The notes beneath the pieces were generated by a model. It searched no databases. It saw only the letters and a program-made list of their open reading frames with translations, and was not told the origin of the DNA. From Lachnospiraceae bacterium (GTDB taxonomy: Bacteria > Bacillota > Clostridia > Lachnospirales > Lachnospiraceae): DNA of 64,000 nt. The stretch covers positions 1-64,000 of the forward strand of contig CASJPF010000014.1 in the NCBI GenBank assembly GCA_949383255.1. The letters are read 5' to 3'. Positions 44,969-60,321 of the stretch are shown here, in pieces. Each line of letters starts with the position of its first letter. The stretch's first letter is position 1. The translations under genes were made by a program, and so were the position numbers.

Positions 44969-45159
44969 GGATTGAATTCTCCTGTGTAGTTGTATATTTT
45001 GTACGTTGATATAATTTGTGTGCATATGATAGAAAACTGTCACGAGAGCAGGTACAAGGCAGATTTAGCACTATTATATACATTCCACGAAATGACTGCA
45101 AGAAGTTTTTGGGAATAGAAAAAATGTAACCAAAAGGGCATCTGATTTGCATATATTAT

Positions 45160-45320
45160 AAGGAACTGTAGAAAAATAACTGACGCATCTTGACTTGGCT
45201 ATTTCTCCGATTATGCATGCCAAAAAGCCTCGCCGTAGCCCGCTACGCCTACATTTTTTGACATACCTCCTCGAAGAAATATCCTACGCAATCTGCATCA
45301 CTTATTTTCCTAATTCCTAA
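45160..45320 (+). repeat. Family-1 palindromic repeat, copy B
   Basis: AAGGAACTGTAGAAAAATAA to TTATTTTCCTAATTCCTAA ends. Interior contains GACTTGGCTATTTCTCCGAT, AAAAAGCCTCGCCGTAGCC and CCTCGAAGAAATATCCTACG. Nearly identical to copy D (60158) and to the reverse of copy C (59198). It lies 34 bp before the start of the broken binding-protein gene. Confidence 0.88.
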
Positions 45321-51716: not shown

Positions 51717-51781
51717 TTGGTGGTCAGATTTTTGACTGTTGGTGGACAATAGAAACAAAAAAATTTTTAAAATGCTATACT
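51717..51781 (+). promoter_or_regulatory. Bacteriocin promoter with AgrA-type (LytTR) direct repeats
   Basis: TTGGTGGTCAGA (51717-51728) and TTGGTGGACAAT (51739-51750) are direct repeats with a 22-bp period, typical spacing for LytTR regulators such as AgrA. A poor -35 abuts the second repeat and TATACT (51776-51781) is the -10. The agrBD promoter at 58232-58294 has the same repeat sequence core (GTGGACAA), the same period and nearly the same distance to its -10 (25 against 26 bp). The 51563-51716 part of the gap shows no other feature. Confidence 0.7.
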
Positions 51782-51896
51782 CATAACATCAACAAAACTT
51801 ACCGAACAGACTTAATGACAAAGCAAGTACGTTGATGTGTTTTCTATAATATTTTGCATATATAAAATATGCACTGAAAAAATGGAGGTAGTATTT

Positions 51897-52316
51897 ATGT
51901 TCAGAAAAAAATTAGCGGCATTGGCAGTAGCAGCAACCATGATAGCAGCATCTGGGGTTCCAGTATATGCAGCAGAGGCGGATGCACCAATTGGAGGCGG
52001 TGAAGAGGTTGTTTTTGAGAATCAGGGTCTGATCGAATCCTTTGTGGACGCAGGAGCGGTTACATATGGAATTACAAGTGGAGAAGTTGATTCGGGAGAC
52101 AAACTGGGATATTGGATTCGCGGTGACAAGAAGATTGAAGGAGTAAAGAGTGTTTATTCCTCTTACAAAAATTATAAATATCAGGGGGCAGCGAGTGTAA
52201 CAAGTGGAACTGGTGTATATGTCGACGGAGGATATAAGCCTGCAGATACGATGAGTACAGCATACACCGAATGGACATTTTGGGGCACGAACAAAGCAAA
52301 TTATCGTTTCAAGTAG
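51897..52316 (+). CDS. Lactococcin 972-family bacteriocin precursor
   Basis: 139 residues with a clear Sec signal (FRKKLAALAVAATMIAASGVPVYAAEA, cut about residue 27). The mature C-terminal part, GYWIRGDKKIEGVKSVYSSY (about 79-98) and AYTEWTFWGTNKANYRFK at the end, fits the lactococcin 972 pattern of W-x-x-G, Ser/Tyr-rich centre and aromatic C-terminus. Family members block septum formation via lipid II. A 40-residue acidic segment lies between signal and core. GGAGGTAG precedes ATG 51897. A multi-span protein and an ABC ATPase follow, the usual immunity/export genes. AgrA-type repeats lie in its promoter. Confidence 0.82.
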   Translation: MFRKKLAALAVAATMIAASGVPVYAAEADAPIGGGEEVVFENQGLIESFVDAGAVTYGITSGEVDSGDKLGYWIRGDKKIEGVKSVYSSYKNYKYQGAASVTSGTGVYVDGGYKPADTMSTAYTEWTFWGTNKANYRFK

Positions 52317-52334
52317 TAGTTGTTCAATAGAATA

Positions 52335-52371
52335 CACAAAAAGATTGTCATGAAATGGCAATCTTTTTGTG
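52335..52371 (+). terminator. Hairpin after the bacteriocin gene
   Basis: CACAAAAAGATTG pairs perfectly with CAATCTTTTTGTG (inner CAT/ATG). It would partly stop transcription so that bacteriocin RNA exceeds that of the membrane and ATPase genes. Confidence 0.8.
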
Positions 52372-52397
52372 GGAAAGAGAGAAGGCATAAGGTATAG

Positions 52398-54542
52398 ATG
52401 AAAAAAATAATAGCGATTGTTTTAGTAGTGCAAAGTTTTTTGCTTACAATTGTTGGTTTGCAGGTTTTTAAAAACATAAACTATATAAAACTTCTTTATC
52501 GAAACAATAAAGCTGTCTTAGTTAGGGCTGATAATGGAGAAAATAATCGTGATGCAGCGGATGAATTAATCTCTTTTATGAAGGATCAGAAAATAAATCA
52601 GGATGTAACAATTTCTAAATATGTATATATTGATGATGATAACTTGGTAATTTATACGAATGATCTTTTGCTTGATGGAAAAATAAAACTTACTTTAGAG
52701 AATAATATTTCAACTGATATGTTCATTGCCAATTATGACAGTGGCAGTGAAGCTCAAATAGGAAAATTTTATATGTTTGTTCCAAAACTTAAAATAACAA
52801 TCTATCCGCTAGAACAGGCACAGAAGGTCGGTGTGGACGGAATATATTATATTACAGAAAGTGACGCAGGAAAAATCATTGCAGATATTAATAATGGATT
52901 TGGATATGCAGAAGTGTACAATGAATTTTCTGCTAATATAGAAACTTATTTAGAAGGCAGTATACAATTAATTGTTTGTATAGGAATGACAACTCTTATT
53001 TTAATGGTAGTTATAATGCATTATACTATAAAATCTGGAAAAAAAATAGGGATTTTAAAAATGCATGGTTTCGGAACATTGGAAATAATTAAAAATATAC
53101 TTATGGAATTATACCAGATGCTAATCTTAGTTTTGTTAGTTGGAATGATAATTTCGGGTGCTTATGGTAGTTATAATTATGGATGGGATTGTATTGCCAC
53201 AGTATTTAAAGGATATCTGTTGTCCTTTTTATTGACTATTTTTATAAATTGGATTGCTATATTATGTGTTCTCTTTTTACAAATTAAGTTGGGGAATATT
53301 GTTCCTCTAATTAAGGGAAAAAGACCTTTTGGAGTACTATTTGGAACCTATATTTTTTTAAAATGTGTGTTTTTTATTACTTTAATCATTGGCGGTATCA
53401 ATTTGATTTATCAGGTGCAATACTTACAAGTTCAGTATAATAACTTGGATATATGGAAAAAGGCGAAGGCAGTTTATTCTATTAATTTGAATTATGTCGG
53501 TGAGTCACGGGATTCGGAGATCAAATTAAAACAATTCTATGATCTGATAAATCAAGATGGAGGGTTTCTGATTGATGCACAAAATTATGTGTTGGTGGAT
53601 GGAGAAAATCATTTGTACGATTATAATGCTCCAGGAGAGGAAAGCTACTATGACCCATATGGAAGAACCATTACCATTAATGAAAACTATTTGAAAGTAA
53701 ATTCGATTACGTGCAATGGAAGTACTGAGTCGATTTTGTCTCAAATTGATGATAGGGATAATGTATGTAATATTTTAGTTCCATTTAACCTGAAAAAGTA
53801 TGAACCTAAAATACAAGAACGTTTTTTGGATGATTTTTATTTTAAGAAGATAGAAGTAGAAAATATCTATAATAAAGAAGAAGGTATATTGAATAATATG
53901 CCGAAAAGCGAACTAGCATTAAATATTATATATATAGATGATAATCAAGAGTATTTCACATACTCAAATATCGAGGATGATAATGGCTGTAAAATTATCA
54001 ACCCTATTGTAATTTTGGATACAGGCAATGTTGATTACAGTTATTACTTGTCATATTTATCCAGATGTGTTTATTTTCAGTATGAGGGAATGGATGTGTT
54101 TGATTATTTGGCGCCACTAATTAAGAAGGCAGATGTTTTGTCAGAAATTCAGAGCGTTACAGCCTTATATGACAACCATGGAAAACAGATTTATAATTTG
54201 GAAGTGAGCATAAATTGTGCAGTTATAGCGATTGTGGTAATAATGGGGTTATTTGCTATTATTGGATTTGTAATAATATCTGCATATTATCAGGAAAAGA
54301 AATATCAGATTTATATCAAAAAGGTTTTTGGATTCAGTTTGTTGCAAAGGATCAATAAGTTTTTAGCATTGATGTTTCTGCTTGATATAATCATATTAGG
54401 TGCTGTAAAATTGTATGAAGATAACACTCTTGTTTTGGCTTTTGGCGGTGTTATAGTATTAACAGATTTAATTGCGATATTAATAGAGGGAAAACGGTTA
54501 GATGAGAAAAATTTTAATATTATCATAAAGGGGGAGCATTGA
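52398..54542 (+). CDS. Bacteriocin-associated integral membrane protein (DUF1430/FtsX-like)
   Basis: 714 residues with a first TM at about 5-23, a block of helices about 190-340 and a last block about 600-700, an FtsX/MacB-type arrangement with large outside loops. The ending contains the family-like KKVFGFSLLQRINKFLALMF. Such proteins follow lactococcin 972 genes and pair with the ATPase gene next door; they are thought to give export or immunity. The gene is very AT-rich compared with the chromosome before 51 kb. Its TGA overlaps the ATPase ATG by one base. Confidence 0.82.
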   Translation: MKKIIAIVLVVQSFLLTIVGLQVFKNINYIKLLYRNNKAVLVRADNGENNRDAADELISFMKDQKINQDVTISKYVYIDDDNLVIYTNDLLLDGKIKLTLENNISTDMFIANYDSGSEAQIGKFYMFVPKLKITIYPLEQAQKVGVDGIYYITESDAGKIIADINNGFGYAEVYNEFSANIETYLEGSIQLIVCIGMTTLILMVVIMHYTIKSGKKIGILKMHGFGTLEIIKNILMELYQMLILVLLVGMIISGAYGSYNYGWDCIATVFKGYLLSFLLTIFINWIAILCVLFLQIKLGNIVPLIKGKRPFGVLFGTYIFLKCVFFITLIIGGINLIYQVQYLQVQYNNLDIWKKAKAVYSINLNYVGESRDSEIKLKQFYDLINQDGGFLIDAQNYVLVDGENHLYDYNAPGEESYYDPYGRTITINENYLKVNSITCNGSTESILSQIDDRDNVCNILVPFNLKKYEPKIQERFLDDFYFKKIEVENIYNKEEGILNNMPKSELALNIIYIDDNQEYFTYSNIEDDNGCKIINPIVILDTGNVDYSYYLSYLSRCVYFQYEGMDVFDYLAPLIKKADVLSEIQSVTALYDNHGKQIYNLEVSINCAVIAIVVIMGLFAIIGFVIISAYYQEKKYQIYIKKVFGFSLLQRINKFLALMFLLDIIILGAVKLYEDNTLVLAFGGVIVLTDLIAILIEGKRLDEKNFNIIIKGEH

Positions 54543-55159
54543 TGATCAAAGTGAGTAAGCTATCAAAAAAATTTGGTCAGCGAGAAATTTTTAATAATTT
54601 TTCATTTGCTATTGAAGAAGGTGAGTTTGTAGCAATTACCGGAGAAAGCGGAAGCGGGAAAACTACGCTTTTGAATCTGATTAGTCTGTTGGATCAGAAA
54701 TACAAAGGACAAATTGAAATTGATGGAAAAGCTGCTTTTTCTAGGAAAGAAATACAAACTATGCAGCGATATAAGTTTGCATACCTTTTTCAAAACTATG
54801 CATTAGTTGAAAATGAGACAGTACGACAGAACCTGCAGATTGCCTTAAAATATCGAAAAGATGCCAATCCCAATAACAGCATAAAAAAGGCGCTGAAACT
54901 TGTAGGGATGGAAGGCGCTGAAAACTATAAGATTTATGAGCTGAGTGGGGGAGAACAACAGAGAGTAGCATTGGCAAGGGTATATTTGAAGAAACCCAAA
55001 TATGTTTTTGCAGATGAACCGACAGGAAATTTGGATAAGCATAATAGAGATATTGTGTTTGGGTTGTTGAGGAAAATGAATGAGTTTGGCGCTACTATTA
55101 TATTTGTAACGCATGATATAGAATTGTCTCAAAGTGTTGGAAGGATTATTGCGGTATAA
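54542..55159 (+). CDS. Bacteriocin-type ABC transporter ATP-binding protein
   Basis: 205 residues. Walker A GESGSGKTTLL (about 35-45), Q-loop FQNYALVENETV, signature LSGGEQQRVALARV (about 136-149) and Walker B YVFADEPTGNLD (about 157-168) are all intact. MacB/LolD-like class that pairs with FtsX-like membrane proteins. Start and stop overlap with the preceding gene shows coupled translation. Together with it this is probably an efflux pump giving self-protection against, or export of, the lactococcin 972-like peptide. Confidence 0.9.
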   Translation: MIKVSKLSKKFGQREIFNNFSFAIEEGEFVAITGESGSGKTTLLNLISLLDQKYKGQIEIDGKAAFSRKEIQTMQRYKFAYLFQNYALVENETVRQNLQIALKYRKDANPNNSIKKALKLVGMEGAENYKIYELSGGEQQRVALARVYLKKPKYVFADEPTGNLDKHNRDIVFGLLRKMNEFGATIIFVTHDIELSQSVGRIIAV

Positions 55160-55236
55160 TACAGAAAGTATGAAGCCAGTTATAATGATTTGGTATTTTA
55201 GTAGTATTTGTGTTCTGCGCTAGGGAGGTAAATGCA

Positions 55237-55776
55237 TTGTATAATAATAACATACAACAATATGTGGAAGCAATTAAGTTGGCAGCAGGGAGTGTGCAAT
55301 ATAAAAATCTTTCTATAAAACAAACATTTTTTCTCAGTGTAAAACAGCTTTACGAATATTATATAAATATGAACAATGTGTGCTATTTGGAAACTGCAAT
55401 TCTCCACATTCAGGCGTATTTAGAAATGGGCTTTCCCTACGATGAAGGAAAAGAAATATTTGACCTTGTGATTGAAGGAACTGGAAGTGCGCAGGAACTT
55501 AAATTTCCTAATAAATTTTATGCTGCAAAAACGATTAAACTGAATAAGGCACAGGTCAGAAGTATGATTAGAAAATGGCCTCCTTCGTCGCATCAGGTAA
55601 TGAAAATAGATGAAGTAGTTGATGATATTATTTCAAAGGTGAGAAAAAAAGAGAACGGAATATTTTATTACAAGTGTGCTGCAACGAAGGATATTTATGA
55701 ATTGGTGATCAGTGAAAAAGAAACATTTTTCCACGATATGCAAATGGGAATATTTTATTCATTTTTGGGGGTGTGA
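55237..55776 (+). CDS. Hypothetical protein of the bacteriocin/agr island
   Basis: 179 residues, no signal or membrane segment; mostly helical, basic, with a central RSMIRKWPPSSHQVMKIDEVV stretch. I do not recognise a family. TTG 55237 is chosen because AGGGAGG lies 8 bp upstream; an in-frame GTG at 55210 has no ribosome site. It follows the ATPase gene by 77 bp in the same direction and converges on agrC (34 bp between stops). An immunity or regulatory role is possible from position only. Confidence 0.6.
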   Translation: MYNNNIQQYVEAIKLAAGSVQYKNLSIKQTFFLSVKQLYEYYINMNNVCYLETAILHIQAYLEMGFPYDEGKEIFDLVIEGTGSAQELKFPNKFYAAKTIKLNKAQVRSMIRKWPPSSHQVMKIDEVVDDIISKVRKKENGIFYYKCAATKDIYELVISEKETFFHDMQMGIFYSFLGV

Positions 55777-55810
55777 GGAGCACAAGCAATTTATAATATC
55801 AGGAATTTTT

Positions 55811-57106
55811 TTAAAAAAATAACACAATTTTAACTATAAATTGATTGTCTTTATTTACACATTTTAATGAACCATTATACTTTTGTACTGCGTCCATAAC
55901 ACTGGGAAATCCCCAACCATGTAAGTCTTTATTCTTTTTTGTTGTTTCTGGATAATAAACAAATTCTTCGTTGCGGTTAACACATGAATTTGATATCTTA
56001 ATCATTAAAAAGGAGTTGATTTTCCGAATGGTTAAGGATATTTTTCCAGGCTTCTCTAGAACACTTGCAGCCTCTATGGCATTGTCTAATAAATTTGCTA
56101 ATATAGTACACATGTCATGTGAAGAAATATTTGTATTTTGCGGAAACTCTACATTAATTTCAGAAGAAATTCCTTTTTCTCTCATTTTTTCAAGCTTGCT
56201 GTTGATTACTACATCGATTACATCTGCTCCTGTCCAAACTGTTTTGGATAATTTCATAATTGGTGTGCTAATATTCTTAATATATTCTTTTGCTTCATCT
56301 GTATTACCCGCTTCTAATAATTGATATAGTACATTTAAATGATTGTTCAAATCATGATGTAACTTGGCATTACTCATATAAATCTCATTGATTGTCCTAT
56401 AATTTTCTTCCAATAAATGATTTCGCATCTCTGAAAAATTAAGTTTCATTTTTTCTTCCCTTGTCACAACAATAAAGTAAAGAATAAATGATAGAAAAGC
56501 TAAAACAATAATGAAACTCACCCATAAACTTGATATAGTGTAATGAAATGCTTTCATAGTTTGATTTACTAAAAAAATAAATCCCAAAAAGCCTACACAT
56601 GAAATTGCAAGAACCGTGTAGGCATGGCTAATTTTTATAGAAAACTTATAATAAAATTTTTTGGTCAGGAAGTACAACATAATCCAAAAGAATTTAACTA
56701 CGATGACGATTATTGTACGCAGAACGCCCATCGTTGAAAGTACTTTTGATAAAGTTTCGCGTCCATTTCCAAATTCTGAAAACAAGGTAAGTACTAAAAA
56801 ATCAAAACAACTTAAACAAAGCAGATAAAAACTTCCCAAAGAAAAAATTGCAACAAAATTAACTTTATACAAAAAAGCAGATGATATGCTAATATACAAT
56901 ACAAAAATCAGCATCGTAAAATAGGAAAACAAAGAAATATGATTGCACATCCATATAATAATCGCTCCAACAACCGCCAAGACTACATCAATATGTTTGC
57001 TTTGAATACAACGATACTTGTAGAGAATAGCATTATATACTTTATATAAAACAAACATCTCTATAAAACATGCGATTATTTCAACTAATTCAAATATAAT
57101 ATTCAT
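55811..57106 (-). CDS. agrC: AgrC-like sensor histidine kinase
   Basis: 431 residues: an N-terminal sensor of about six or seven membrane helices (1-215), then a cytoplasmic kinase. The phospho-acceptor box is LHHDLNNHLNVLYQLLEAGN (about 255-274) and the GHKL ATPase N-box is ILANLLDNAIEAA (about 345-357); G-box GWGFPSV near 410. This is the HPK10 type that detects autoinducing peptides. ATG 57106 follows AAAGGAATTAAAG; the frame continues to 57226 across a MITE and is not supported. It lies about 400 bp downstream of agrD on the same strand, separated by a MITE and a hairpin. Confidence 0.92.
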   Translation of the reverse strand: MNIIFELVEIIACFIEMFVLYKVYNAILYKYRCIQSKHIDVVLAVVGAIIIWMCNHISLFSYFTMLIFVLYISISSAFLYKVNFVAIFSLGSFYLLCLSCFDFLVLTLFSEFGNGRETLSKVLSTMGVLRTIIVIVVKFFWIMLYFLTKKFYYKFSIKISHAYTVLAISCVGFLGFIFLVNQTMKAFHYTISSLWVSFIIVLAFLSFILYFIVVTREEKMKLNFSEMRNHLLEENYRTINEIYMSNAKLHHDLNNHLNVLYQLLEAGNTDEAKEYIKNISTPIMKLSKTVWTGADVIDVVINSKLEKMREKGISSEINVEFPQNTNISSHDMCTILANLLDNAIEAASVLEKPGKISLTIRKINSFLMIKISNSCVNRNEEFVYYPETTKKNKDLHGWGFPSVMDAVQKYNGSLKCVNKDNQFIVKIVLFF

Positions 57107-57122
57107 CTTTAATTCCTTTCGA

Positions 57123-57297
57123 GTACATCGAATAATAAATTTCTGATATATTGACGCAGCATGATTATTCCTATGCAAGGCGAGGGAATGAGTCGTAGCG
57201 ATGGCTACGGCGATTGACGACAACAAAAGGAATGCAGTCCTTTTGCAGATGGATAATCAGACAAGTCAAAATATCAGTTAATTATTATTCGATGTAC
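57123..57297. mobile_element. 175-bp MITE-like element between agrD and agrC
   Basis: GTACATCGAATAATAA (57123-57138) and TTATTATTCGATGTAC (57282-57297) are perfect 16-bp inverted ends. Further inward CTGATAT-A-TTGAC and GTCAA-A-ATATCAG also pair. The centre has a GTAGCGATGGCTAC hairpin and no open reading frame of note. One copy in this window. It enlarges the spacer between agrD and agrC and may weaken co-transcription. Confidence 0.85.
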
Positions 57298-57351
57298 TAG
57301 AGCCTGTTTGAAAAATGCTTTCTGTCTAATGTGTGTTACAATCTGTTGGAG

Positions 57352-57428
57352 ATTTGTACCAAATTAAAACGGCGTAGTAGATAAAATATAAAGGACAATG
57401 CTTTACGCCAACTGAATTTGGTACAAAT
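57352..57428. repeat. Long hairpin between agrD and the MITE
   Basis: ATTTGTACCAAATT (57352-57365) pairs perfectly with AATTTGGTACAAAT (57415-57428), with inner GGCGTA/TACGCC. It could end agrBD transcripts or be a small palindromic element. On neither strand is there a long U-run. The rest of 57429-57504 is featureless. Confidence 0.65.
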
Positions 57429-57504
57429 ATTATGTAAAGCAAGGCATGTATTTGCCATCTCAGAACATATAATGATTTCAAAATACATTTAGACATTGTA
57501 TAAC

Positions 57505-57609
57505 TTATTGTAATATTTCTGGGAGTTTAGGCTGATATGTCCCGCATACGGATACACAATTTGCGCCCATAATCGCACATAATTTAATGATTTTTGCAAG
57601 TAAAATCAT
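57505..57609 (-). CDS. agrD: AgrD-type cyclic lactone autoinducer precursor
   Basis: A 34-residue peptide: amphipathic leader MILLAKIIKLCAIMG, then a core NCVSVCGTYQ with two cysteines (18 and 22), then the charged tail PKLPEILQ. Leader, Cys core and a Pro/acidic tail with P-x-L-P-E are the AgrD pattern; AgrB would cut after the ring and close a thiolactone between a Cys and the new C-terminus. Which Cys forms the ring is not clear. GAAAGGAGGATATAAAGT gives a strong ribosome site before ATG 57609. The gene overlaps the 3' end of agrB by 26 bp, so it is translationally linked to its processing enzyme. Confidence 0.9.
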   Translation of the reverse strand: MILLAKIIKLCAIMGANCVSVCGTYQPKLPEILQ

Positions 57610-58207
57610 ACTTTATATCCTCCTTTCTCCTAAATCTTGCAAATATTGATTCATCAGCAATCAACATGAAAACGGCAATTAAACAAACACTTAATACAGC
57701 CATGCAAAATAGTTCTTTATTGGTATAAGATAATAAAAATATCCATAAAGTTTCAAAACATAAAATGATTTTTGTAATTTTTTTGCAGCGTTTTTTCTTA
57801 TATACGTTTATCGGCTGTGCTAGATTTTTTATGGGTGCCTTTACTATAATGAAGATATATGTTACAAATAATAAGCAATACCAATAAGGATATACTACAT
57901 ACTCCCACAATAGGTTTTTTATGCTTAAAACGAGAAGATAGGTTAAGTTACTTAAGATAAAACATCGACTATATGTAGTAGCATGGTATCCGCCCGTAAA
58001 CAATCTTAAAGGGACAAATGTAACAAGGAACACTAAACCTGATACAAAATCTGATAATATAGTAGATATAGTTACGATGGAAACAAAAAAACCAATAGTA
58101 GATATTATTAGTTCAAAACCATATGTGTATATATCTTCTTCTTGTTTATCTCCTTTTATTTTATACAATAAAAATTTTGATAGTTGAACAGAAACCTTAT
58201 TTAACAT
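57584..58207 (-). CDS. agrB: AgrB-like accessory gene regulator peptidase
   Basis: Membrane cysteine peptidase that processes AgrD. The 207-residue protein has about five or six membrane helices, and the catalytic pair is visible in LRLFTGGYHATTYSRCF: His75 and Cys82, seven apart as in Staphylococcus AgrB (His77/Cys84). The start is ATG 58207, 8 bp after AAGGAGGT; an in-frame ATG at 58231 lies upstream of that site. First gene of the agrBD unit, with AgrA-type repeats in its promoter. Confidence 0.93.
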   Translation of the reverse strand: MLNKVSVQLSKFLLYKIKGDKQEEDIYTYGFELIISTIGFFVSIVTISTILSDFVSGLVFLVTFVPLRLFTGGYHATTYSRCFILSNLTYLLVLSIKNLLWEYVVYPYWYCLLFVTYIFIIVKAPIKNLAQPINVYKKKRCKKITKIILCFETLWIFLLSYTNKELFCMAVLSVCLIAVFMLIADESIFARFRRKEDIKYDFTCKNH

Positions 58208-58231
58208 ATCAACAACCTCCTTGTAGTACAT

Positions 58232-58294
58232 ATTATCAAAATTATTGCGGTAGGTCTACAATTTGTCCACGAATCTTTGGATTTTTGTCCACGA
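58232..58294 (-). promoter_or_regulatory. agrBD promoter with AgrA-type direct repeats
   Basis: On the minus strand TCGTGGACAAA occurs at 58294-58284 and 58272-58262 (22-bp period, exact repeat). A weak -35 TTGTAG (58261-58256) abuts the second repeat, then an 18-bp spacer and GATAAT (58237-58232). Repeats next to a weak -35 are the arrangement of AgrA-activated P2-type promoters. The bacteriocin promoter at 51717-51781 has the same design. Confidence 0.78.
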
Positions 58295-58445: not shown

Positions 58446-59165
58446 TTGTTATATATTGCTATTTGTGACGACGATGAAAGAACAGTGAAAACATTTGAAA
58501 ATAAGGTTATCACATTCCTAAAAACAAACAATATTATTGCAGAAATTAAAACATATACGCAGAGTAGAATATTACAATATGATATTCAGGAAGGAAAATA
58601 TTTTGATTTCATTTTGTGTGATATTGAGATGCCAGATATTGATGGAATGAAGTTATCGGCTTATATCAAGAGACTTCTTCCAGATGTATTGATTATTCTT
58701 ATTACTTCGCATTTAAAATATGCAATAGATGCCTTTGAACTGTCGATATTCAGATATATTCCTAAAAATTCATTAGACATAAGGCTTGAGCATGCGCTGA
58801 AGGATGCTGTTAATATGATTCAGTTACAGGCGGATCAATATTATATGATAAAAATGCCAAGTCGGATAGAAAAAATTCAATATCATAGGATTTTATATAT
58901 TCAGCGAGATGGAAAAAATGCAGTTATTACATTAATTGATGGAACTTCGACAAAAGTAAGAAAAAGTCTGAGTCAGGTATACAATGAGCTAAACTCGGAA
59001 GACTTTATATATGTTGACCGTGGTGATATTGTGAATTTGAGTCATATTATAGGGATTAGAGAAGGTATTGTAGATTTGGGGAATGGAATCAGGATTCCTG
59101 CTAGTCATTCAAAATTGGAGTATATCAAAGAGAAACTAAATGATTTTTGGGGAGAACAAATATAA
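58446..59165 (+). CDS. agrA: AgrA-like LytTR response regulator
   Basis: 239 residues. Receiver domain with CDDDER (8-13) and the phospho-acceptor Asp in FILCDIEMPDIDGM (about 57-70), Thr/Lys positions in ILITSHLKYAID and PKNS. The C-terminal LytTR domain (about 138-235) has IQYHRILYIQRDGKNAVI and YVDRGDIVNLSHI. TTG 58446 with TAGGAGGGG just upstream is the start. Divergent from agrBD, so each arm has its own promoter; a TGATATACT extended -10 at 58399-58407 may serve agrA. Predicted to bind the 22-bp-period repeats at agrBD and the bacteriocin gene. Confidence 0.93.
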   Translation: MLYIAICDDDERTVKTFENKVITFLKTNNIIAEIKTYTQSRILQYDIQEGKYFDFILCDIEMPDIDGMKLSAYIKRLLPDVLIILITSHLKYAIDAFELSIFRYIPKNSLDIRLEHALKDAVNMIQLQADQYYMIKMPSRIEKIQYHRILYIQRDGKNAVITLIDGTSTKVRKSLSQVYNELNSEDFIYVDRGDIVNLSHIIGIREGIVDLGNGIRIPASHSKLEYIKEKLNDFWGEQI

Positions 59166-59197: not shown

Positions 59198-59360
59198 TAA
59201 GGAATTGTAGGAAAATAAGTGATGCAGATTGCGTAGGATATTTCTTCGAGGAGGTATGTCAAAAAACGTAGGCGCAGCGGGCTGCGGCGAGGCTTTTTGG
59301 CATGCATAATCGGAGAAATAGCCAAGTCAAGATGCGTCAGTTATTTTTCTACAGTTCCTA
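59198..59360 (-). repeat. Family-1 palindromic repeat, copy C (reversed)
   Basis: Reverse orientation of copies B and D with few differences (for example GCGCAGCGGGCTGCGGCGAGG against the complementary block in B and D). Follows agrA by about 30 bp. With copy D it brackets the nuclease-like gene in inverted orientation. A weak CATGAGACCT/GAGGTCGCATG stem follows at 59368-59396. Confidence 0.88.
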
Positions 59361-59427
59361 AAAAGACATGAGACCTGCAATTATGAGGTCGCATGAAAGA
59401 GATTTGTGAAACGAACAGCTAATTTCT

Positions 59428-59991: not shown

Positions 59992-60157
59992 TTGTATACT
60001 CCTTTTTTTCTTCTTTGGACTCTTAAAGTCTCTTTGTAACAAATATTGCGAGAAGCTATTTATATTATAACACCATATTACAGACTACACCAGTGTGTTT
60101 TATTAGTTTTTAGGAATGGGTAATCATTCAGGTAATTGTTCACGTTTTCTGTAATTT

Positions 60158-60321
60158 TAAGGAACTGTAGAAAAATAAGTGACACATCTTGACTTGGCTA
60201 TTTCTCCGATTATGCATGCCAAAAAGCCTCGCCGCAGCCCGCTACGCCTACGTTTTTTGACATACCTCCTCGAAGAAATATCCTACGCAGTCTGCATCAC
60301 TTATTTTCCTGCAATTCCTAA
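60158..60321 (+). repeat. Family-1 palindromic repeat, copy D
   Basis: TTAAGGAACTGTAGAAAAAT to ATTTTCCTGCAATTCCTAAG. Almost the same as copy B. It lies upstream of the nuclease-like gene. 60322-60471 is AT-rich and shows no gene. Confidence 0.88.

Follow-up and report, generated by a model that had tools for sequence, protein, structure and literature searches.

A putative agr-controlled cassette for a divergent lactococcin-972-like bacteriocin in a Lachnospiraceae bacterium

The window analysed here is a stretch of 64,000 nucleotides from a Lachnospiraceae bacterium (assembly GCA_949383255.1, contig CASJPF010000014.1, positions 1 to 64,000), and it carries, at 51.7-59.2 kb, an agr-type peptide signalling system beside a bacteriocin-type operon. 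The source assembly comprises 4.38 Mb in 169 contigs, with a completeness of 86% and a contamination of 6.85%. The plus strand holds bac (51897..52316), which encodes a 139-amino-acid precursor with a signal-peptide-like N-terminus (judged by eye) and is divergently lactococcin-972-like by profile comparison; a gene for a 714-amino-acid DUF1430 bacteriocin-associated membrane protein, presumed to confer immunity (52398..54542); an ABC transporter ATPase gene (54542..55159); and orf179 (55237..55776), the start codon of which is uncertain. On the minus strand follow agrC (55811..57106), agrD (57505..57609) and agrB (57584..58207), while agrA (58446..59165) lies on the plus strand, divergent from agrB. 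Pfam matches over the cut-off were obtained for the AgrC-type GHKL sensor kinase (PF14501, PF14689), AgrB (PF04647), the AgrA response regulator (receiver PF00072 and LytTR PF04397), the ABC ATPase and the DUF1430 protein (PF07242). The latter also matched the bacteriocin-associated membrane protein model TIGR01654 (151.7 versus a cut-off of 189.35), and the top NCBIfam match of the ATPase was the lactococcin 972 (Lcn972) exporter model TIGR03608 (248.4 bits versus a cut-off of 254.85), both below threshold. The operon layout of the Lcn972 family, a DUF1430 protein followed by an ABC ATPase, is thus present downstream of bac.

The four agr components AgrB, AgrD, AgrC and a LytTR-type AgrA, which an earlier note made from the sequence had placed next to the bacteriocin genes, were all identified. 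AgrB matched its family with an E-value of 9.7e-35 and carries, in GGYHATTYSRC, the H-x6-C motif, the H and C of which are the catalytic residues. Its listed open reading frame (ORF) starts at 58231, where the ATG abuts the presumed -10 element; the ATG at 58207, preceded by AAGGAGG, is by eye the likelier start. The 34-amino-acid agrD product, MILLAKIIKLCAIMGANCVSVCGTYQPKLPEILQ, was recognized by eye and had no Pfam match at E-values up to 10; its ORF overlaps the end of agrB and is kept in two relatives, with 100% and 91% identity. The ring of agr peptides consists of the ring residue plus four others, and a ring of Ser plus four residues, SVCGT, would fit this rule. Comparison of AgrA with PDB sequences gave receiver-domain matches and one match over the LytTR region, none of them informative on the site bound.

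Direct reading confirmed 22-bp-period repeats before both agrB and bac. On the bac side (51717..51750, plus strand), TTGGTGGTCAGA at 51717 is followed by TTGGTGGACAAT at 51739, and we presume this pair to be the AgrA site of the bac promoter. On the agrB side (58295 to 58262, minus strand), CTCGTGGACAAA is followed by TTCGTGGACAAA at the same offset, the final 11 bases of the two half-sites being identical. The exact pattern GTGGWCA-N15-GTGGWCA occurs twice in the 4.38-Mb assembly, at 51720 (plus) and 58292 (minus), and nowhere else. The core motif of the earlier note therefore stands, whereas its N14 spacing, which gives no match in the genome, has to be corrected to N15.

LytTR regulators such as AgrA bind paired direct repeats about two helical turns apart beside weak -35 elements, and this arrangement was found at both promoters, the -35 elements being assigned by eye. 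The bac promoter (51753..51781) combines a weak -35, AAACAA (51753-51758), with a 17-bp spacer assigned by eye and a -10, TATACT (51776-51781), that is invariant in three species. The presumed agrB -10 is GATAAT (58232..58237, minus strand). From the end of the second GGACA, the -10 is reached after 27 bp at bac and 26 bp at agrB; the 25 or 26 bp proposed previously agree with this if the repeat core is taken one base longer. A sigma-70 scan was uninformative overall (47 promoter-like sites versus 46.6 in shuffled sequences) and proposed a rival agrB pair, TGGACA-17-AATAAT, so that the exact -35/-10 assignment at agrB is tentative.

To avoid circular reasoning when scoring the bac site, a matrix was trained on agrB-promoter sites only, namely those of the window, the close relatives G021 and G060, and the more distant loci L157 and L125. 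In the window, the agrB site (itself in the training set) scored 38.0, the bac site 24.1 and the next site 11.9; the maximum among 200 random 64-kb sequences was 20.2. Upstream of bac, a clear peak appeared at period 22 only, other periods from 14 to 33 scoring at most 11.1. Looser patterns were of no help: with up to two mismatches, the window holds three matches (8 of 100 shuffles reach at least three) and the genome 51, compared with 79 for a reversed control pattern, and a relaxed motif allowing Y gave 30 matches in 18 of the 38 genomes of the genus versus 19 for the control, five of the 30 lying at the units described here. By self-similarity, the agrB repeats of the window were significant (equalled in 0 of 200 shuffles), those before agrB in G021 and L157 weakly so (p 0.02 and 0.025), and those before agrB in G060 (p 0.21), before DUF1430 in L125 (p 0.67) and before agrB in L125 (p 0.985) not significant.

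AgrA matched at an E-value of 1e-40 or better in 14 of the 38 genomes, and with 87% identity at two places beyond the window, contig C25 of G060 and contig C39 of the window's own assembly; all others reached at most 53%. The agr locus on C39 (L058, G000:C39:28000-34906) was rejected as independent evidence: 6,855 of its 6,907 bases align to G060 with 99.6% identity and the assembly is 6.85% contaminated, so it was excluded from the count; it is probably a contaminant. G060 has all eight genes in the order and on the strands of the window, and G021 has the first seven, its contig stopping at agrB, short of agrA. The outer flanks differ, the gene found at 59.4-60.0 kb in the window lying upstream of bac in G060. 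In the alignment of the three species at the bac promoter, 11 of 12 bases are invariant in each half-site and 7 of 10 in the spacer, against a background of 6 of 33 in the bases immediately upstream and 44 of 78 in the 5' untranslated region; conservation also continues up to the -10 (27 of 32) and through the 20 bases that follow it (18 of 20). The agrB sites are likewise conserved; one G060 half-site has AC in place of GT. Loss of the motif from relatives that keep both loci had been named beforehand as a refutation of quorum control; both sites are kept in G060 and G021, the two close relatives found, although no AgrA was seen on the G021 contig.

The linkage recurs at greater distance. When named genomes were scanned with the DUF1430 alignment, 12 loci emerged, the contigs of G021 and G060 among them. 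Another, L125, from the goat-colon metagenome-assembled genome RGIG2151, holds DUF1430-ABC-agrB-agrD-orf179-agrA-agrC on one strand, with identities of 53%, 69%, 35%, 41%, 67%, 60% and 50%, respectively. An exact core pair, GTGGTCA-N15-GTGGACA, precedes its DUF1430 gene (9817) and a looser one, ACGGACA-N15-GCGGTCG, its agrB (12836). Scored by a matrix trained on the three close species, the L125 agrB site ranked top, at 25.0 versus a maximum of 19.3 in 200 random sequences. L157, from G253, has agrB-agrD-orf179-agrA-agrC, with TTCGTGGACAAA/TTCGTGGACATA at 22 bp before agrB, on a contig too short to reveal any bacteriocin gene; a reading of its second half-site as TTCGGGGACATA was discarded, since the sequence gives TTCGTGGACATA. 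Most distant is L183 of G399, where agrA-agrC-agrD-agrB is followed after 42 bp by two PF09683 peptides (E-values 3.3e-12 and 1.1e-11), DUF1430 and ABC genes. The AgrA proteins of L183 and L125 share 28% identity. An A-rich repeat upstream of the L183 agrD, CAAAATAAACA twice at 21 bp (p 0.04), was set aside.

Among 397 genomes of the family, seven had DUF1430 at E-values of at most 1e-10, at eight loci (two candidates per genome scored); the seven loci beyond the window were inspected, L183 being one of them. TIGR01654 matched in 4 of 60 relatives. Of the five genomes in the genus of G399, PF09683 was found in G399 only; class-wide, six of 391 genomes had it, at eight places, three of them in one genome, and none of the eight had agrB in the DNA examined. 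In all, agrB lies near 5 of 31 Lcn972/DUF1430 loci (the window, G021, G060, L125 and L183), all of them Lachnospiraceae going by record titles or the family label shared with the window; since several contigs are short, the true number may be higher. At two loci, L185 and L199, weak AgrA-like matches occur in the absence of agrB. On plasmids, DUF1430 gave 81 records, all below 60% identity, and none of the three regions inspected had annotated agr genes. One such plasmid, NZ_CP149720.1 of Clostridioides difficile (L135), carries a DUF1430-ABC gene pair; its gene table, which is incomplete, lists no bacteriocin gene ahead of the pair.

From these analyses, we conclude that agrBDC and the bac operon are probably both switched on by AgrA acting at the sites they have in common, which would make this a quorum-controlled bacteriocin cassette. 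AgrB would mature and export a cyclic peptide derived from AgrD, which at high density would activate AgrC and so lead to phosphorylation of AgrA. AgrA would then bind as a pair to the 22-bp-period repeats just upstream of the two weak promoters, giving positive feedback at agrBDC and, at bac, switching on an operon presumably transcribed as one unit: bac, the DUF1430 membrane protein and ABC ATPase (immunity or transport), and orf179. The earlier proposal that 51.7-59.2 kb forms one regulated unit is thus supported by a conserved site pair shared by both promoters in three species, and is amended to include orf179; binding by AgrA and dependence on density are what we infer from this arrangement. 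The rearranged cluster of L125, the agrB site of L157 and the distant agr/lactococcin-972 operon of L183 lend added support, as do the orf179-regulator-kinase modules found elsewhere next to genes of the lanthipeptide type.

Several observations weigh against this interpretation. With 22 LytTR matches in the assembly, another regulator could act at the predicted sites. The bac repeats are not significant by self-similarity alone (p 0.255 in the window), and in G021 and G060 another repeat scores best in the bac region (p 0.775 and 0.825); the significance of the bac site lies in its likeness to the agrB sites and its conservation between species. At L125, no bac gene is present in the cluster, and the DUF1430 site ranks fourth (18.99), after those at agrB, 16371 and 1375, and falls just short of the highest null score, 19.3. 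When the L125 site is left out of the training set, leaving four agrB sites, 1375 ranks above 12833 and 9814. The 1375 site stands before a secreted protein and beside a second AgrA. No agrB was seen in the DNA examined at 26 of the 31 Lcn972/DUF1430 loci, including that of G022 from the same genus. Finally, bac had no match to PF09683 or TIGR01653 at E-values up to 10 in Pfam and NCBIfam, and its AlphaFold model, with a mean predicted local distance difference test (pLDDT) score of 32.8, was unusable.

These last points bear on whether the 139-amino-acid protein is a bacteriocin at all, or a secreted product without antibacterial function that merely shares the Lcn972 operon layout, which we consider unlikely. 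Besides being missed by the family models, the protein lacks, by eye, the His-rich stretch of other Lcn972 peptides; its alignment by hhalign with only two annotated members reached 38.5%, and its core (residues 61-139) matched the Lcn972 profile at only 16.2% (E-value 0.0016). PDB sequences gave one irrelevant match (E-value 1.3). The full-length comparison of a four-row bac alignment with twelve Lcn972-type peptides, which includes the signal peptide, nevertheless reached 95.7% with an E-value of 8.6e-9, and the core score of 22.5 exceeded the maximum of 17.4 in 40 column-shuffled controls. Moreover, bac precedes DUF1430 and ABC genes, and a homologue at L126 (42% identity) has the same layout, likewise without a family-model match; no agr genes were found in the DNA examined there. 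The operon layout fits the label lactococcin-972-like and the profile comparisons point both ways, while the Pfam and NCBIfam models miss the protein. We treat bac as a divergent lactococcin-972 relative and not as a proven member; its product may have killing activity.

Relatives of orf179 elsewhere precede AgrA- and AgrC-type genes. The orf179 protein has no family in Pfam (E-values up to 10) or NCBIfam, and its predicted structure reached a pLDDT of 59.1. A search of 397 genomes of the family with its alignment returned 19 rows from 17 genomes; once two partial or weak rows (G292, G372), the window itself and an additional piece of the match in G079 were set aside, 15 places remained, in 11 other genera. 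At all 15, orf179 is followed on the same strand by AgrA-like and AgrC-like genes (tblastn), the order also seen in L125, whereas in the window, G021 and G060 it is the last gene of the bacteriocin operon instead. After the kinase, a short lanthipeptide-like peptide with CC at or beside its C-terminus is encoded at 10 of the 15 places, and a LanM-size gene is present at nine; L157 and L163 end about 2 kb past orf179. DUF4135 and LANC_like were found in all four LanM candidates tested. An eleventh CC peptide, at L167, was dropped as too far off and without LanM behind it, the LanM there lying upstream. Upstream of orf179, agrB and agrD are present in L157 and agrD in L162. In the genus of G253, orf179 was found in G253 only, of 28 genomes. 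Regulators of this family are thereby linked to two unrelated classes of bacteriocin cluster. It is conceivable, if somewhat short of an even chance, that orf179 is the third component, with the LytTR regulator and GHKL kinase, of a portable bacteriocin-control module across Lachnospiraceae. In such a module, orf179 would stay with the regulator pair, and inputs (the agrBD peptide or, perhaps, the lanthipeptide) and outputs (a lactococcin-972-like product or a class II lanthipeptide) would be exchanged.

Repeats at such modules bear on a second alternative, that the bac repeats serve another LytTR regulator of the cell and resemble those at agrB through a general LytTR preference. Among 13 sister places, TTSGNGGWCAAA-type pairs upstream of orf179 were clear at L167, L168 and L171, weaker at L170 (p 0.033) and not significant at the other nine; de novo repeats of 20-23 bp reached p <=0.01 at L165, L166, L168 and L171 and p 0.02 at L161, and the other eight were not significant. 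GGACA-type repeats precede modules in other genera (L168, L171 and partly L167), which, with the many LytTR proteins of the assembly, favours a general preference. Since the exact pairs occur only at these two places in the assembly, and both sites stay linked and alike in three species, we regard this explanation as improbable. Least probable of all is that AgrA uses the bac site mainly for immunity or transport through DUF1430-ABC, or for repression: the L125 site does precede DUF1430 without an intervening bacteriocin gene, but the site precedes bac in three species, L183 has two true Lcn972 genes 42 bp after agrB, and placement upstream of a weak -35 suits activation.

Some further observations were made at these and other loci. 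In L125, a second AgrA-like gene (557-1276) is followed by 22-bp-period repeats TTGGGGGACATG/TTCAGGGACAAG (1375-1408) before a 143-amino-acid secreted-looking protein, possibly another AgrA-type target. At L158-L161 and L165-L171, which span several genera of the family, modules of orf179, regulator and kinase adjoin genes of the class II lanthipeptide type, and L164 has a secreted-looking 171-amino-acid ORF after the kinase in place of a lanthipeptide. Some 65 bp ahead of orf179, L165 and L166 carry an exact repeat of ACTAATATGCA at 20 bp, which may serve a related regulator that prefers a different sequence. A cluster of TGGTCA repeats precedes a 264-amino-acid lipoprotein-like gene at L065 (G003:C10:9688). 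The window itself contains a repeat of about 165 bp in three copies, 95-97% identical (45155-45320, 59200-59364 and 60155-60319).

Control of a bacteriocin by an agr-type system is of a known kind. Fsr of Enterococcus faecalis controls enterocin O16, and its LytTR regulator binds upstream of fsrB and of the bacteriocin gene (PMC5454873); as described in the sections of that paper available to us, it resembles the cassette in its agr-type peptide, its LytTR regulator and its paired targets, own operon and bacteriocin, and differs in that the bacteriocin gene is of another kind and lies about 800 kb from fsr. Mediterrocin of Mediterraneibacter gnavus, from another gut Lachnospiraceae, shares an Lcn972-family bacteriocin, a DUF1430 membrane protein and an ABC protein, but its peptide is an annotated family member, unlike that of the window, and the cluster has its own transcription regulator; its main text never mentions agr, and in the available sections the authors leave regulation for further study (PMC12345188). 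In Streptococcus mutans, the LytTR regulators of HdrRM and BrsRM act on paired direct repeats to activate bacteriocin promoters and are autoregulated, although a membrane inhibitor replaces agr peptide signalling and the repeats are mostly 12 bp apart (PMC6193735, available sections). The Agr system of Clostridium acetobutylicum adjoins the LanM-like gene CA_C0082 and controls its expression, but this effector lacks catalytic residues and is not a bacteriocin maker (PMC10301443, available sections). Comparable to the orf179 sister modules is the ruminococcin A lanthipeptide cluster with its regulatory genes rumRK (PMC6071512, as far as the available text describes it). In their accessible portions, PMC11161930 treats lactococcin 972 and agr/LytTR as separate gene clusters, and a survey of rumen bacteriocins names Lcn972-like peptides without agr (PMC13289728). 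The earlier note knew of no described agr-lactococcin 972 pairing, and none was found in the accessible portions of the open-licence literature searched.

The Fsr/enterocin O16 system is not known to have an Lcn972, DUF1430 or orf179 part. That the pairing and its sites persist in two related species points to production of the weapon once enough cells of the bacterium's own kind are around. For the regulation of lactococcin-972-type bacteriocins of the gut, it offers, in one lineage, a testable answer in the form of control by a cyclic peptide. If this is true, a peptide signal could switch the product on or off in the gut community, and the orf179 module would predict which lanthipeptide and Lcn972 clusters of the Lachnospiraceae share one type of control.

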